From the IMG/VR virus record IMGVR_UViG_3300043313_002018, positions 1 to 64,000 of that record: a DNA stretch of 64,000 nucleotides; one strand, written 5' to 3'. The position numbers and the translations under genes were made by a program. This stretch comes from a virus. Positions 1 to 61,435 of the stretch are shown here, piece by piece; positions within the stretch are counted from its first letter, which is position 1; every line of letters begins with the position of its first letter. The notes beneath the pieces are model-generated. The model saw nothing but the letters and a program-made list of their open reading frames with translations, was not told where the DNA came from and did not search any database.

Positions 1-3000
1 TCCCGAGGTAGAAGCGCCCGCGCTGCACGCCCACGGTGCCGCCGGTGTGCTCGAGCAGCACCTGGTTGAGCGTCTCCACCACGCCGTTGACGCCCGAGTG
101 GTCCCAGATAAATCGCGGCGCGGCACTCAAGTTGAACTTCGGCCACGGGTACCCCGCGCGCACCGCCGGGAACTTGTTCACCAGGTCGATAAACGATGCG
201 TTCATCGCCCCCTTGGGCCGGTTGAATTCGTCCTTGCCGAAGCCCTTCTTGATGAGCGCCCCGGAGAAGGTGAAGTCGAGCGCCCCACTCACCGCATGGT
301 GCAGCACCCGCCGCATCTCATCCGCGCCACCGAGCTTCGCCGCCAGGTCCGCCGGCGGCAGGTGGTACAGCAGATCGGGGTCGAGTCCCCGGTTCCGGAG
401 TTCGTCCCGCAAGTTCGCCACGTACATCCCCGAGCGCGCGGTAAATTCCTGCGCCCGGTTGAACAGCGTGAGCGTGTTCTGCACCTTCGGATTACTAATG
501 GCGTTCAGGATCCGATACTTGCTGACCTGGTGCGGGGTCGGCTCGCCGTAGTTGGTGGCGCCGAGGAAATGCGCCGCCTCCTCGGGAATCCCTTCCAGCA
601 GCTTCAGCGCCGCGCGCCGCTCCGCGCCCATTGGCAGGTTCGCCAGGTACGTGGTGCTGTCGAAAATCTGTTCCCACTGCGCCTGTCGCGCGTGCCACGG
701 CATCACCCAGCCGTCGGGACGCAGGATCGGCGTGTACCGCAGCAGGTCCCCGGCCTTTTGCAGGTGCTTGAGCGCCCGGCCGGGACGCGCCAGCGTGGTA
801 CTCGCCACCGCCGACCCGAGCTCGTCGAACATTTCCACGCCCCACCGCGCGTTCACGGTCCAGAAGTTGCGCGCCGCCGTCGCCCACTGGCTGAGCATGA
901 AGGACCGCGAGCTCGCCTCGAAGGTGTCGAACGAGCCGCGCTCGCTCTTGGTCAGGTCGTTGAGCAGCATCACCCGGTCCCACGCGCGGGTGGGCGCGAC
1001 GATATCCTTGAAGGTGTCGATCGGCGCCAGGTCGCCGAGGCGTCCGAGCTGGCGGCCGCCGGCGCCCAGGATGAGCGCATCCTCGAGCTCCCCGCTCGCG
1101 CCGGTGATCCCTTCGATCGCGCGGATCTCCGCCTTGTTCTTTTGCTTCCACACGCTGAGCGCGGCGAGGAAGCGGCCGCTCTCGGTCGCGGTTTTCGTCA
1201 GGTGCGCGGCGATCTGCTGGTTGATCTGCCGCTCGCTCATCCCCTGCTGCTTCATCGCGGTCTGCCAGGACTTCATGGCGCCCCAGGAGCTCGGGGACCG
1301 GAGCATCAGCTGCTCGGCGATCTGCCGATTCAGCCGCGTGAAGCTGTTCTGGGTCGGGTCGTCGAGGATGCCGTGGCCGTTGACGTCTTTCAGCACGTCA
1401 TTCAGCGCCGCCACCGTCATCCCGACTACCTGCTGTTCGCTCGGCAGCGGGATAGACGCGGCACCGGGCTGAAGGATGCCGCCTGGGCCAGCGGTAACTC
1501 CCTTGCCCTTGAGTGCAGGGGGAACCTCGGGTGCCACGACGATACGGCCAACTCCCTCCACCCAGTCGGTGCGTCCGTCATAGAGAGCGAATAGCGCACC
1601 AACGGGATCCTGTGGTCCCGCGGCAGTAGCTTGTTCAATTCGTGCGACAAGCGCATCTCGATGGGCATCCTTGAGAGGAGACGCCCGAACCGTCTCGCGC
1701 GCCGCCTTCTGTGTTGCCACGGTTGCTGCTTGGACTTCCACCCATGCCATGCGGGCATTGCCGTCCTCCAAGTATTGCTGCGCGCGCACGTACCACGGCT
1801 CCGTATTAAATTCCGCCTTGTGCGTGCGCAGGTAGTCGGTCATCGCCGGTGCATCGCCGGGGGCGCCCTTGAACTTGGGAATGCGGTCGACCATCCAGCC
1901 GGCGACAGCAGGCGGCACGGCGGTACCGGGTTTCGGCTTCTCCGTCCCGAGCCGCACCACGCCTTCCAGCCACGGACTGTGCACGCTGCCGCTCGGCTGC
2001 CATACCCGCACATCGCGCAGGCTCCCACCGCGTACCCCCAAGATCATCATCGGCAGGTCGCTTACCGTGCCCTTCAAGTCGCGGGTAGACGGTTCCGCCG
2101 ATCCGGTCGGCTGGCTGTGGAAGCTACTCAGCACATCCCACCCGTTCGCGCGCGCCATCTGCTGCGCGGCCGCCACCACATCCGCCCCGATCTCAAACGT
2201 CTTCGCCGGATTCGCCGCGCGGTTGTCGCTCACGATCACCTTGCGAATGTTGCCCTGGGAATCACCGAGGATGAGGCCGGCCACTTCCTGCTCGCCGGCG
2301 CTTTCGACCTTCTCCTTGAGCGTCTGGAAGTCCGCGTCGTCGATCGCCAGCTCGCGGATGGCCGCGTTGCGCTGGTTGCGCTTGCCGGCGACGTCGCCCA
2401 CCGCGCCCGTCTCGTCGAACAGGCTCGGGCCCTTGGGACGGGTGCCCTTGGGAATCTCCGCCGTGAGCCGGAACAGATCGGCCTCGTCAGCGAGCAGCGG
2501 CTGCTGGCGCGCGGCCTCGCGTACCTCCGGGAGCAACGCGGGCTGCTCCTCGGGCGTACGTACCGGCGCCTCCTCCTCAAGCTCAGGCCCCTTGAGCGGC
2601 AAACTCCCGGGCGTCCCGGGCCCCTCCGTCATCAGCGGCTGCTGCTGGTACTTGCCGAGCCCGCGTCGCTCGAGCTCCGCGCCGACCATCCCGGGACCGA
2701 CCTCGTACCACGCGCCGTTGAATTCCTCCGGCGCCTCGAGGTTCTCGACCCCGCCGCCCAGCTTCAGATTCTCATGGAGCGCCAGCAACTCCTGATCGCT
2801 CGCGCCGCGCACCAGCTTCCGGGCCTCGTGCATCTCATCGGGCGCCCAGTCGCTGTGCGTGAGCGCCGGCGGCGGGCCCTCCTGCGGCCGCCGCACGCCG
2901 AACTTCTCCATCAGGTCGTTCGGCTGCCGCTGCCCGCCTAGCTGCTCGTGCAGGTTGCCCATCGGCGACTGAAAGTCCCGCCGGCTCCGAAACCCAATGT

Positions 3001-5059
3001 CCGCCAGGCGCTCATCGCTAATGAGCGACCAGTCGAACTTGCGCGCCACCGGATCCCACGCCTCGCCCATGGCCGTGGCGATCTTCTGCGCCGCCACCGC
3101 CGCCTTCCCCGGCCGGCGCGCGCGCCCCTGCAGGAAGTTATCGATCTGAGTGGCGATCTGGCTGCGCGTCATGCCGATGCCCAAGGCGTCGAACATCTTG
3201 AGGATCGGCGTGCCGGCGACGTGCGGGGACCACAGGACGTCCGAGGGCCCACCCACCTCCGACTGCTCGGCGGCGTGGGTGTCCAGCGCCCGCTCGTCGC
3301 GCAACCCGCGCGCCGGCGCTTCCGGCGCCTGGTACTGGAACTCCTGCAGGTCGCTCAGCAGCCACTGCAGCATCAGGCCGTTCTCGCGGGATACGCGGCC
3401 GGTCTGCACCGCGGGAAGGGCGTCCACGCCGTGCACCTGGAATTCCGGCAGCGTGCCGACGTCGCGGCCGTCGCGCATCCCGGTGGTGCTCGGCGGCACC
3501 CCCAGCTCCTGCTGCTCCGGCATCCGCGGCGGATTGCGCCCCTCGCTGAAGGCGCCGGCGTCCGGTGCCACCAAGGCCGGAGGGCCCCCGCGTTGGGGCG
3601 CGGGCGTCTCGAGCGTGCGCTCGAACGCGCTACCGAAGGCGCGTTCCGACTTGGTGGCACCGGGGTCGACCTCGGGCCCCATGTCGGGGATGAGCTCGGT
3701 GCGATTGAGCGGACTGAACTCGCTCGGACCCTTGGGCCCGTACGCCGGATCCAGCGGGGTATACCACCCCACCTCGCTCGGCTGGTCGATCGGTCGCGGG
3801 CTGGACGTGGTACGGATGTCCGTGAGAATGCCTTGTACCTGTTGAATCGTCGCGTCCACCGCGCCACGCTGCTTCAGCCCGGCGAGGAAGCCTTCGATCT
3901 CACTCAGCTGCCCGTCCATCGTGAGGGTGTCCGCGCGCGTGCCGAAGTCCTTGACGAAGCTGCCGGCGTACTGCTGCAGATCCGCCTGCGCCAGCGCGTT
4001 CGCTTCGGTCACCAGCCGCTGCAGCATCGCCGCACCCGCTGCCGGGTTGTCCTTCCCCACCTGCGTCGCCAGGTCGTAGATCGCCTGCGCGGCGCCGTTG
4101 CGATTCGGGCTGGTGCGCAGGTCGTTGAAGTGCATGTCCACGAGCGCCGGGTCGGGCAGCGCGCGGGCCGCCTGCACCGCATGCACCGCTTCCCCGCCCG
4201 CGCCGATCGCCGCGCCAAACGGGGCACCGAGCAGCGTGCTCATCCCGACCTCGCCGAGCTCCGGCAGCCGGTGGTCGCGGATGGTGGATTCGGCCACGGT
4301 GCTGGCGCCGGAGCTCACCGCGCCTTCGAGCGTGCTCCCGGCGATCCGCGCCACCGCCGGCGCCACGGCGTCCTCGAGCCCGGGCGCGAGCGCCGCCAGG
4401 CCCTTCCCGGCGTACTTGGCAACAGGTACCGCGTTAATCAGCCCCTGTACCGCCACGTTCGGCAGGCTGATCCCGTCATCGCGCGTGCCCGACCAGTTCT
4501 GGTAGCCCTCGCGCAGCGCTTCGCCCGCCATGCCGCCGGCGGCCGCGCCAATCGCCGTGCCCCCAGGACCGACCGAACTGCCAATGCTGCCGCCCATGAC
4601 ACTCGGCACCGCCACCAACCCCGCCTCGATCGCCATGTCGGTGTAGGTGGGCGTGCGCAGCTTGTCCGGCGGCGGCGCCACCGGGCCGGTCGGCGCCTTC
4701 TTCATGGGGCCCAGCTCGTACCCGCCCAGGTTCGGCGGCGGCACGCTCTCGGTACCGAACGAGCTCGGATCAATTACATTCCGCAGCTCCGGCTGCTCGG
4801 CAAAGATCGCATCCACCAGATCGGCGTTATTGAAGGAGTCGAACTCGCCGGGGAATTCCGCCTTCCACGCCTGCACTAAATCTGCAGTCGAGTAGGTGCG
4901 CTTCGGCCCGGTGGGAATCGGTGTGCGTAGCGGCGAACCCGCCGGCGCGAGCGGCGGCGCCTGCACCGGGCGGCTGTCCGCGCCGACGCGCGTCCGAAAC
5001 GTCTCGCTCGTCGTCACCGACGGCTGGGGCGCGCGGGTCCGATCCTGGCCGCCGGCCAT
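1..5059 (-). CDS. Very large internal-virion-type protein with JAMM-like domain (3' end outside window)
   Basis: The minus-strand frame from the ATG at 5059 stays open to the left edge, giving at least 1,686 codons. The first 130 residues are rich in Pro and Thr. Two Gly/Ala-rich hydrophobic stretches lie near residues 140-185 and 270-300. Around residues 910-1010 there is a JAB/JAMM-like block: E925 before a G-L-I-L-G strand, then H981-S-Q-P and, after the usual spacing, P-S991-x2-D994. The second metal-binding His of the H-x-H pair is Gln983, so peptidase activity is doubtful. The remainder is helical and charged. It is the last gene visible in the structural operon and starts 3 nt after the stop of the preceding gene. 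Size and position resemble internal ejection proteins or the multi-domain 'polyvalent' proteins of phages; the family was not identified. Confidence 0.75.
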   Translation of the reverse strand, partial: MAGGQDRTRAPQPSVTTSETFRTRVGADSRPVQAPPLAPAGSPLRTPIPTGPKRTYSTADLVQAWKAEFPGEFDSFNNADLVDAIFAEQPELRNVIDPSSFGTESVPPPNLGGYELGPMKKAPTGPVAPPPDKLRTPTYTDMAIEAGLVAVPSVMGGSIGSSVGPGGTAIGAAAGGMAGEALREGYQNWSGTRDDGISLPNVAVQGLINAVPVAKYAGKGLAALAPGLEDAVAPAVARIAGSTLEGAVSSGASTVAESTIRDHRLPELGEVGMSTLLGAPFGAAIGAGGEAVHAVQAARALPDPALVDMHFNDLRTSPNRNGAAQAIYDLATQVGKDNPAAGAAMLQRLVTEANALAQADLQQYAGSFVKDFGTRADTLTMDGQLSEIEGFLAGLKQRGAVDATIQQVQGILTDIRTTSSPRPIDQPSEVGWYTPLDPAYGPKGPSEFSPLNRTELIPDMGPEVDPGATKSERAFGSAFERTLETPAPQRGGPPALVAPDAGAFSEGRNPPRMPEQQELGVPPSTTGMRDGRDVGTLPEFQVHGVDALPAVQTGRVSRENGLMLQWLLSDLQEFQYQAPEAPARGLRDERALDTHAAEQSEVGGPSDVLWSPHVAGTPILKMFDALGIGMTRSQIATQIDNFLQGRARRPGKAAVAAQKIATAMGEAWDPVARKFDWSLISDERLADIGFRSRRDFQSPMGNLHEQLGGQRQPNDLMEKFGVRRPQEGPPPALTHSDWAPDEMHEARKLVRGASDQELLALHENLKLGGGVENLEAPEEFNGAWYEVGPGMVGAELERRGLGKYQQQPLMTEGPGTPGSLPLKGPELEEEAPVRTPEEQPALLPEVREAARQQPLLADEADLFRLTAEIPKGTRPKGPSLFDETGAVGDVAGKRNQRNAAIRELAIDDADFQTLKEKVESAGEQEVAGLILGDSQGNIRKVIVSDNRAANPAKTFEIGADVVAAAQQMARANGWDVLSSFHSQPTGSAEPSTRDLKGTVSDLPMMILGVRGGSLRDVRVWQPSGSVHSPWLEGVVRLGTEKPKPGTAVPPAVAGWMVDRIPKFKGAPGDAPAMTDYLRTHKAEFNTEPWYVRAQQYLEDGNARMAWVEVQAATVATQKAARETVRASPLKDAHRDALVARIEQATAAGPQDPVGALFALYDGRTDWVEGVGRIVVAPEVPPALKGKGVTAGPGGILQPGAASIPLPSEQQVVGMTVAALNDVLKDVNGHGILDDPTQNSFTRLNRQIAEQLMLRSPSSWGAMKSWQTAMKQQGMSERQINQQIAAHLTKTATESGRFLAALSVWKQKNKAEIRAIEGITGASGELEDALILGAGGRQLGRLGDLAPIDTFKDIVAPTRAWDRVMLLNDLTKSERGSFDTFEASSRSFMLSQWATAARNFWTVNARWGVEMFDELGSAVASTTLARPGRALKHLQKAGDLLRYTPILRPDGWVMPWHARQAQWEQIFDSTTYLANLPMGAERRAALKLLEGIPEEAAHFLGATNYGEPTPHQVSKYRILNAISNPKVQNTLTLFNRAQEFTARSGMYVANLRDELRNRGLDPDLLYHLPPADLAAKLGGADEMRRVLHHAVSGALDFTFSGALIKKGFGKDEFNRPKGAMNASFIDLVNKFPAVRAGYPWPKFNLSAAPRFIWDHSGVNGVVETLNQVLLEHTGGTVGVQRGRFYLG

Positions 5060-5062
5060 GTC

Positions 5063-59160: not shown

Positions 59161-59637
59161 ATGGCTGATGACAAGTCTGCTCTCGAGGGCACGCGATCCC
59201 TCACAGACATACAAGAGGACTTGCGATGGATTCGCTCGTTCATTGAGTATGCTCGCTACGAATTACAGCCGGGAGCACAGATGACTGGCGATCAGTTGCA
59301 ATGCGAGGCTGACAAGGCCATCGCCAAGATCGACGCCATCCTTGCGCTCTCCCGGCTCCCCGCAGACCAAGAGGAGGAGCGCGGTTGGCTGATCGAGAAA
59401 TACCGTGATCGTAATGGTGACCCAATTCAACCTGAATGGTGGGACGGTTCCAGTTTCAGAACAAATGCCGATCACGCGATGCGATTCAGCCGAGAAATAG
59501 ACGGCAAACTCATGCTGTCGTTACTGCTCGGTAATACATTCGCGTTCGACTGCCGCGTCACGGAGCATCTATGGGAGCCAGCCCCGTCCCTCTCGTCACG
59601 GCTCCCCGTAGAGGAGCAGAAGGAATCCCGTGGGTAG
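59161..59637 (+). CDS. Phage protein of lower GC, unknown (158 aa)
   Basis: A 158-residue protein. The N-terminal half is helical (LTDIQEDLRWIRSFIEYARY). The centre reads RGWLIEKYRDRNGDPIQPEW, WDGSSFRTNADHAMRFSREI, a pattern seen in small phage/plasmid proteins in which W-x3-W-W-x-G precedes a D-A helix. Codon use is visibly less GC-rich than its neighbours. It starts just after the previous stop. Confidence 0.6.
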   Translation: MADDKSALEGTRSLTDIQEDLRWIRSFIEYARYELQPGAQMTGDQLQCEADKAIAKIDAILALSRLPADQEEERGWLIEKYRDRNGDPIQPEWWDGSSFRTNADHAMRFSREIDGKLMLSLLLGNTFAFDCRVTEHLWEPAPSLSSRLPVEEQKESRG

Positions 59638-60007
59638 ACTGTTAAATCCCGGCCTCGGCGAGCTCGCCGACCGCTACACCATCCTGCAGCTGAAGATCCT
59701 GCACGGCGACCCGACGAACGTCCAGCACTTCCACGCCGAGCAGGCGCAGGTGCTGATGACGATGGAGCGGCACGCCAGTCTGAACAGCGACCAGGTACGC
59801 AGCCTAATCGTCTACCTGCGCACGGTCAACGGCGAACTGTGGACGCTCGAGGACCAGATGGCGGTGTACGCCAAGGCCCTGCTGGTCGACCCGCCGGTGG
59901 TCGCCGCGCTGGGCATGACGATCTGGAAGTTAAACCAGGAGCGCAACCAGCTCATTCAGCGGATCAACGTCGCCGCCGGCACGGATGCCGGCCCCGAGAA
60001 ATTCTAG
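59630..60007 (+). CDS. Small helical protein, 'GELADRYTILQLKI' type
   Basis: A 125-residue protein from a GTG at 59630 with AAGGA upstream, overlapping the previous gene by 8 nt. NPGLGELADRYTILQLKILH then a helical body and QERNQLIQRINVAAGTD. Proteins with this opening are found near glycan or nucleotide-sugar genes in phages (writer's recollection, not checked). It could be a regulatory subunit for a glycosyltransferase. Confidence 0.55.
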   Translation: MGRLLNPGLGELADRYTILQLKILHGDPTNVQHFHAEQAQVLMTMERHASLNSDQVRSLIVYLRTVNGELWTLEDQMAVYAKALLVDPPVVAALGMTIWKLNQERNQLIQRINVAAGTDAGPEKF

Positions 60008-60037
60008 TTGACACGTGGTACGCACGTACCATACATT
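60008..60037 (+). promoter_or_regulatory. Promoter candidate TTGACA-N18-TACATT with palindrome in spacer
   Basis: TTGACA at 60008-60013, TACATT at 60032-60037 (18-base spacer), or ATACAT with 17. The spacer contains TGGTAC-gcac-GTACCA (60016-60031), a 16-base inverted repeat that could be an operator. Drives the gene at 60065 and the downstream sugar genes. Confidence 0.55.
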
Positions 60038-60064
60038 CACCCCTTCCGAAAGGCTGAGGACCCC

Positions 60065-60334
60065 ATGAGCAAGGCACTTCCGACCCGCAAGGATGTATTC
60101 AGCAAGGACGGCCGGCGCTACGCCGGGTACGCGCCCGCGACCGCCGGCGACGCGAACCTCCCGACGGGGGTACGCGGCACCTACAAGGGCCCGATCTACC
60201 GGCTGGAACGGCAGGTGCGCACCCGGCGCGGCTTCGGTACCCTGGTGCATGTGATCGTCTCGTTCACGCGCACCAAGGCCAAGGCCCACCAGATGGCGGC
60301 CGGCTGGGTGAAGATCGCCACGAAGGACCGGTAG
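60065..60334 (+). CDS. Small basic protein, unknown (89 aa)
   Basis: An 89-residue protein with AAAGGCTGAGGACCCC upstream of its ATG. Basic, with beta strands (GPIYRLERQVRTRRGFGTLV, HVIVSFTRTKAK) and a short tail ending IATKDR. The last seven codons and stop lie within the first arm of the 67-bp inverted repeat. No family recognised. Confidence 0.55.
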   Translation: MSKALPTRKDVFSKDGRRYAGYAPATAGDANLPTGVRGTYKGPIYRLERQVRTRRGFGTLVHVIVSFTRTKAKAHQMAAGWVKIATKDR

Positions 60335-60380
60335 GCCATGCTGGTGGCCCTGGTATCCAGCGTGCTCGAGTGCGGCGTCG
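60314..60380. repeat. 67-bp inverted repeat, left arm
   Basis: Perfect reverse complement of 60541-60607. It contains the end and stop of the 60065 gene, the start codon of the glycosyltransferase at 60338 and its first 14 codons. The arms are separated by 160 bases. Confidence 0.9.
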
Positions 60381-61435
60381 CCGAGCACAGCGACATGCTC
60401 AAAACGGCGGTACGCACGGCCGACTCGTCGATCGAGTTTGTGACCGACGGCGCTTGGCTCGATCCGCAGCAGTTCTCGGGTACCTTCCCCGATGGCCGGG
60501 GATTTGACGCGGTACGGGGCGGACTTACCCATACACGCTTCGACGCCGCACTCGAGCACGCTGGATACCAGGGCCACCAGCATGGCCTACCGGTCCTTCG
60601 TGGCGATTTGGTGCACCTCAACTACCACCGCGGGCTGCATTCCCGCTGGACGCCGGAGGTGATCGCCAGCTACGGGCCCACCCCCTTCGTCATCACCTTC
60701 CACGACACGTTCGAGACGCAGCCGGACGATCTAGCCTTCCGTCTCCTCGACACCTTCAACGTGCGCGGCATGGTGGTACACGAGCCCTGCGACCTCGTGA
60801 GCCATCCCAAGGTCCACTACTGGCGCCAGCCTTGCCCGCCGCCCCTCGGCCGCGGCTGGCCGGCGGATATCCCCAAAGTGTTCACTGCCCATGGCTGGCG
60901 CCCGACCCTCGGCACGCTCGGCTGGGACTTCCCGTGGAAGAACTACGACCTGCTGGCGGACGTCACCGCCGAGCGGGGCTGGAACCTGCGGATTGTCGGC
61001 AAGGTCGACGGGGACCGGCGGAAAGCGCTGGCCGCTCGCAACCCGAACATCTGGTTTGACGGCTACGTGGAGACGCCGGATGCGATCGCCAAGCTCAGTG
61101 CGTGCGACGCGACGGCGTTCCTGTACACCTGCGCCAATTCCGGCACGAGCGGGGCGATTCGCCAGGGCATTACGGCGGGCAAGCCACTGATCGCGGCAAC
61201 CGGCTGCCGACAGTTCCGGGACTTGGAGGGTACCGCAGAGGGGTGGCCGATTCGGTGGATTGCGCCGAATGCCGATGCGCTCGCCATGACGCTGGACACC
61301 GGCGAGTACGGGTACAGCTTTGCCCTGATCGGCCTCGCCCAGGACCTCAGCTGGGAGAAGGTTGGGCCGCAGTACGCCAAGCTGTATCGAGACGCGGTAG
61401 CGGATGCCGCGAGAAACGCCCGGCGCCTGCCATGA
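60338..61435 (+). CDS. Glycosyltransferase, GT4-like, start crossed by inverted repeat
   Basis: A 365-residue protein. The N-terminus VALVSSVLECGVAEHSDMLK has the C-G-(V/I)-A-E-(H/Y)-S-x2-L of GT4-type enzymes. Then HLNYHRGLHSRW, PFVITFHDTF, a GTB linker with HGWRPTLGTLGWDFPWKNYD, LRIVGKVDGDRRKALAARNP and the C-terminal NSGTSGAIRQGITAGKPLIA donor site. Residues ~68-90 (AALEHAGYQGHQHGLPVLRG) are encoded by the right arm of the inverted repeat, i.e. by an inverted copy of the gene's own start, and look foreign to the fold. Coupled to the next gene by ATGA. Confidence 0.75.
   Translation: MLVALVSSVLECGVAEHSDMLKTAVRTADSSIEFVTDGAWLDPQQFSGTFPDGRGFDAVRGGLTHTRFDAALEHAGYQGHQHGLPVLRGDLVHLNYHRGLHSRWTPEVIASYGPTPFVITFHDTFETQPDDLAFRLLDTFNVRGMVVHEPCDLVSHPKVHYWRQPCPPPLGRGWPADIPKVFTAHGWRPTLGTLGWDFPWKNYDLLADVTAERGWNLRIVGKVDGDRRKALAARNPNIWFDGYVETPDAIAKLSACDATAFLYTCANSGTSGAIRQGITAGKPLIAATGCRQFRDLEGTAEGWPIRWIAPNADALAMTLDTGEYGYSFALIGLAQDLSWEKVGPQYAKLYRDAVADAARNARRLP
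60541..60607. repeat. 67-bp inverted repeat, right arm
   Basis: Perfect reverse complement of 60314-60380, inside the glycosyltransferase gene. On the minus strand it reproduces an ATG with the same first 14 codons and an open frame through the 160-base spacer. Confidence 0.9.

Follow-up and report, generated by a model that had tools for sequence, protein, structure and literature searches.

How a phage gene came to carry a perfect inverted repeat, with one arm lying over its start codon and the other within its own coding sequence, is the question raised by the glycosyltransferase (GT) locus analyzed here. The window, the whole stretch of DNA that was analyzed, comprises 64,000 nt (positions 1–64,000) of the IMG/VR virus contig IMGVR_UViG_3300043313_002018, a record of 71,802 bp from a phage with terminase and helicase genes; the repeat is known here from the sequence of this one contig. 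The analysis indicates that the repeat most likely reflects a one-off recent copying error tolerated by the enzyme, and not an evolved DNA switch.

The repeat and the glycosyltransferase that contains it

The features of the locus, in window coordinates, are as follows:

59630–60007, plus strand: DUF4254-like gene, the upstream neighbor of the GT gene (PF14063, E = 4.7e-6, 26.9 bits versus a cut-off of 27)
60065–60334, plus strand: orphan ORF of 89 residues, preceded by the DUF4254-like gene and followed by the GT gene, ending inside the left arm
60314–60380, plus strand: left arm, the native copy that served as donor (3′ end of the upstream ORF including its stop codon, a Shine-Dalgarno-like AAGGA, the ATG, and 14 GT codons)
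60338–61435, plus strand: GT-B fold glycosyltransferase (GT4-like) of 365 residues in a phage glycan cassette, assigned from its fold, Foldseek matches, and a sub-threshold Pfam match
60381–60540, plus strand: spacer in its native orientation (conserved GT N terminus at 60381–60478, then extra linker at 60479–60540)
60479–60607, plus strand: 43-codon linker (residues 48–90), mostly absent in homologues and including the right arm
60541–60607, minus strand: right arm, the derived copy in inverted orientation, which supplies in frame the GT residues from 68 (last base) through 90

The two arms are reverse complements at 67 of 67 positions and are separated by 160 nt, so the exact arms and spacing reported in a preliminary description of this DNA were borne out on the letters; its placing of the GT start codon and first 14 codons in the left arm was also correct, with one further base included. 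A perfect pair of 67-mers is not expected by chance, which excludes a chance origin. This pair is the only inverted repeat of at least 24 nt in the window, no second such repeat is present in the whole 71.8-kb record, and across nine related records (566 kb) perfect inverted repeats within 1 kb reach an arm length of 24 nt at most. In viral_contigs, 22-mers and 24-mers taken from the arm and the linker had no other exact match. Beyond the arms, similarity is at chance level both in the outer flanks (2/10 and 20/50 matches) and in the inner flanks (3/10 and 14/50). This sharp loss of similarity at all four edges argues for a single recent event and against an old, decaying repeat, and the absence of differences over 67 sites would place the divergence of the arms below about 4.5% (rule of three).

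An AlphaFold2 model of the GT (pLDDT 83.9, pTM 0.83), built from 11 sequences, was matched by Foldseek to PimA, MshA, HepE, and SenB, with E values of about 1e-11 to MshA, PimA, and HepE, as expected for a GT-B fold. The encoded protein thus resembles the GT4-like GT-B enzymes PimA, MshA, and HepE in fold, but differs from them in sequence (11%–19% identity) and in possessing an additional disordered linker; since the Pfam GT4 model PF13439 scores 13.2 bits against a cut-off of 28.5, the term “GT4-like” refers to fold alone. Residues 53–72 and 79–87 of the model have pLDDT values below 50 and are flanked by strands at 33–36 and 91–96, suggesting that the linker is a disordered surface loop around which the GT-B fold is predicted to stay intact.

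Native and copied arms in the light of homologues

Homologues of the GT were retrieved using an FPWKN[YF]D codon pattern followed by an alignment scan, and ten were compared, the majority from the same ~72-kb phage group. Most come from contigs that have in common the terminase and helicase as well as the gene order helicase, 57850 gene, DUF4254, GT, methyltransferase-like, PolA; several of these contigs are 71–72 kb in length. DUF4254-like homologues lie beside the GT gene in seven relatives; the orphan 89-residue ORF has no Pfam or PHROG match and no homologue in the relatives. A close relative lacking the right arm was sought and not found, the homologues being 25%–42% identical to the GT. 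Annotated phages gave no match at either the nucleotide or the protein level, plasmids yielded only a partial GT match, single-protein scans of viral_contigs and genome_contigs and an alignment scan of genome_contigs returned no relatives, and a VHLNYH codon pattern produced chance matches only.

In all ten homologues the GT start leads into CG[IV], and in most of them AEHS or a near variant comes next; the left arm and spacer of the present gene encode CG[VI]AEHS at the same position. From the cysteine of this CG to the asparagine of NYH/NYQ (or its equivalent) there are 83 residues here compared with 38–55 in the homologues. The excess is confined to residues 48–90; the right arm, which accounts for residues 68–90, is missing from 10 of 10 homologues, and homology to the relatives restarts in frame straight after it, at Leu91 of the sequence LVHLNYH. 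The preliminary description had proposed aligning homologues to see whether residues ~68–90 are an insertion, and the alignment indeed places the right arm within an extra linker.

Codon composition follows the same boundaries. Upstream of the linker GC3 stands at 0.87; it drops to 0.55 over residues 48–67, is 0.65 in the right arm, and returns to 0.87 beyond it. The right-arm value falls in the lowest 1.8% of 23-codon windows, and a value as low as that of the linker as a whole (0.60) occurs in 0.4% of 43-codon windows across the other genes of the phage. The part of the left arm read in the GT frame has a GC3 of 0.93. GC3 and homologue conservation together identify the left arm as the donor and the right arm as the copy, and rule out the converse, i.e. 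a native right arm and a copied left arm. The open frame of the right arm is itself a weak sign of selection, as all three frames of the arm are open. The 62-nt stretch adjoining the right arm (60479–60540, GC3 0.55) is likewise extra relative to the homologues and of odd composition; it has no second copy in the record, and a 24-mer from it has no exact match in viral_contigs.

Origin of the inverted copy

We consider it probable that the right arm arose by a single recent event, either a template switch or the insertion of an inverted fragment, that placed 67 nt into a tolerant loop of the GT. A recent template-switch duplication was among the explanations raised in the preliminary description, and it is supported by the absence of the linker from homologues, the foreign codon statistics, the predicted disorder, and the sharp, undecayed edges. 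During phage replication or repair, the 67 nt at the GT start would have been copied inversely ~160 nt downstream, into the gene's own N-terminal linker: the growing strand would have quit its template near 60540, copied the complement from 60380 back to 60314, and then rejoined the original template at the LVHLNYH codons. Capture of a reversed 67-bp fragment would be an alternative route to an identical product. Because excision of exactly 67 nt breaks the frame, a small native piece must have been replaced; in simulations of inverted 67-nt copies replacing 0–30 nt, the frame was kept in about 21%, and survival of the ORF therefore needs no special design. Given that the frame is kept and that the new residues lie in a predicted disordered surface loop, the enzyme is probably still functional. 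We infer the template-switch step, its recency, and a working protein alike. The presence of the phage's own family A DNA polymerase counts in favor of a copying event, whereas the additional low-GC3 residues 48–67 beside the arm count against it, as they are not accounted for by one 67-nt copy.

Template switching is known to make perfect local inverted repeats (PMC7954356), and the present locus resembles a short-range template switch, as formulated in the four-point model (PMC7954356) and the quasipalindrome model (Ripley, 1982), in the one-step formation of a repeat, the return to the template, and the sharp edges: a new perfect inverted repeat ends abruptly, and past the copy the original template is resumed from residue 91 onward. 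Template switching also alters coding sequence in Saccharomyces cerevisiae (PMC8604942), where, as here, an inverted copy inside an ORF changes the protein. The yeast coding cases have arms of 7–16 nt, with spacers searched up to 70 nt, in contrast to the larger 67-nt arms and 160-nt spacer of the phage gene, for which there is no ancestor sequence; moreover, the yeast events homogenize short existing repeats and change no more than 5 neighboring residues, whereas about 22 residues are copy-derived here (PMC8604942). If the junctions hold in reads, a recent inverted template-switch copy has added some 22 residues with frame and fold unbroken, in an event larger than those yeast coding cases (PMC8604942). 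Such an event would illustrate the one-step growth of disordered loops.

The main rival, a chimera having likewise been named in the preliminary description, is an assembly or library chimera, in which fold-back, PCR/MDA template switching, or a mis-joined path would have produced a right arm present in the contig only. Inverted chimeras are well described for amplification and library preparation, and the perfect identity of the arms, the poor codon statistics of the added residues, and the occurrence of the repeat in one metagenomic contig and in no relative would all fit such an origin. A plain fold-back or MDA chimera, however, has a single inverted junction that runs through to the end of the read or fragment, and two junctions are needed here: the sequence comes back to the gene with the frame and the conserved motif intact, an outcome for which accidental frame retention is about 21%, and the record contains no further repeats of this kind. 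The return to the gene, as read from the contig, appears to favor a real event over a simple fold-back chimera, and we regard a chimeric origin as unlikely, although it carries appreciable weight.

Bacterial surface-glycan genes are commonly phase-variable, which counts in favor of a further explanation listed in the preliminary description, a phase-variable switch. According to this proposal, the locus would be an evolved intragenic inverton whose 160-bp spacer flips, alternating two versions of the enzyme or turning it off. Like the intragenic invertons of Chanin et al. (2024), as cited in PMC11892184, the locus consists of an intragenic segment bounded by inverted repeats, and the frame does stay open when the spacer is inverted, as had been claimed, giving 365 residues starting MLVALVSSVLECGVEACMGK. 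The motif is also replaced as described, with CGVEACMG... in place of CGVAEHSD..., but AEHS is thereby swapped for unrelated residues, leaving no plausible functional alternative form, a difference from the intragenic invertons. Since inversion erases AEHS, the current orientation of the spacer is the functional one, and an inverted spacer as the ancestral state was rejected on the ground that CG[VI]AEHS is native in the present orientation. Nor is the open inverted frame evidence for a switch, because 44% of random 160-bp inversions simulated in the genes of this phage stay open. The preliminary description saw no recombinase in the window, and a search of the record similarly revealed neither a serine resolvase/invertase (PF00239) nor a tyrosine integrase (PF00589), a further difference from the invertons cited in PMC11892184. 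Typical invertible sites are repeats of 10–20 nt (PMC5903667), a length far exceeded by the 67-nt arms, and the repeat is absent from all the relatives compared. The proposal of an evolved switch thus fared poorly, and we judge it very improbable. We likewise find improbable an on/off switch that dispenses with a recombinase, in which replication or homologous recombination would flip the spacer and leave an in-frame, inactive enzyme in some phages; were it true, virion or host glycan modification would vary. The repeat may nevertheless permit rare passive inversion of the spacer, by recombination or template switching, that would inactivate the GT. More generally, phase variation in a GC-rich phage is weakly supported by a perfect inverted repeat whose spacer reads open when inverted, given the 44% of inversions that remain open.

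Transcript folding and genomic surroundings

Folding prediction for the transcript gives a hairpin (−226.5 kcal/mol, z −17.6) whose 67-bp stem includes the start codon, and we infer that the mRNA could, as a side effect of the repeat, bury its start codon in this way. A selected role in RNA control, whereby the hairpin would hide the ribosome-binding site and start codon and so lower or time GT translation, would draw on the stability of this fold and the position of the start codon within the stem. Such folding is, however, common to any perfect inverted repeat, the hairpin is not conserved among the relatives, and ribosomes can load before the right arm is made, since the latter is transcribed about 200 nt past the start codon; selected RNA control is accordingly very doubtful. 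The sole Rfam match, to the microRNA precursor MIR1437, was dismissed as a long-hairpin artefact (53 bits versus a gathering score of 168).

The gap between the DUF4254-like and GT genes (60008–60337) varies among the related records, with different small ORFs in L033, L044, L052, and L060 and none in L040, and is an apparent insertion hotspot. In two relatives, ORFs for HNH_3 homing-type endonucleases immediately precede the GT gene (L048:6363–6851 in G002 and L057:7258–7770 in G007). The G002 HNH ORF opens with a partial copy of the GT start, which looks recoded, is 67% identical (32/48 nt), and stops at codons 15–16, a break that adjoins the position of the left arm's inner edge in the present gene (codon 15). 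These sequence comparisons suggest that the GT start may be a homing target, and a nuclease cut there could have begun the rearrangement, a proposal that rests on one coincidence.

At the scale of the genome, an open minus-strand frame of about 2,250 codons spans the record ends in phase (window 2–5062 and record 70115–71802, both on the minus strand), as would be expected if the record were a near-complete, circularly permuted genome of ~72 kb. A single ORF at 66674–69817 of the record (L004:6674–9817) combines a uracil-DNA-glycosylase superfamily domain with the family A DNA polymerase, and polA homologues are present in most of the related records.
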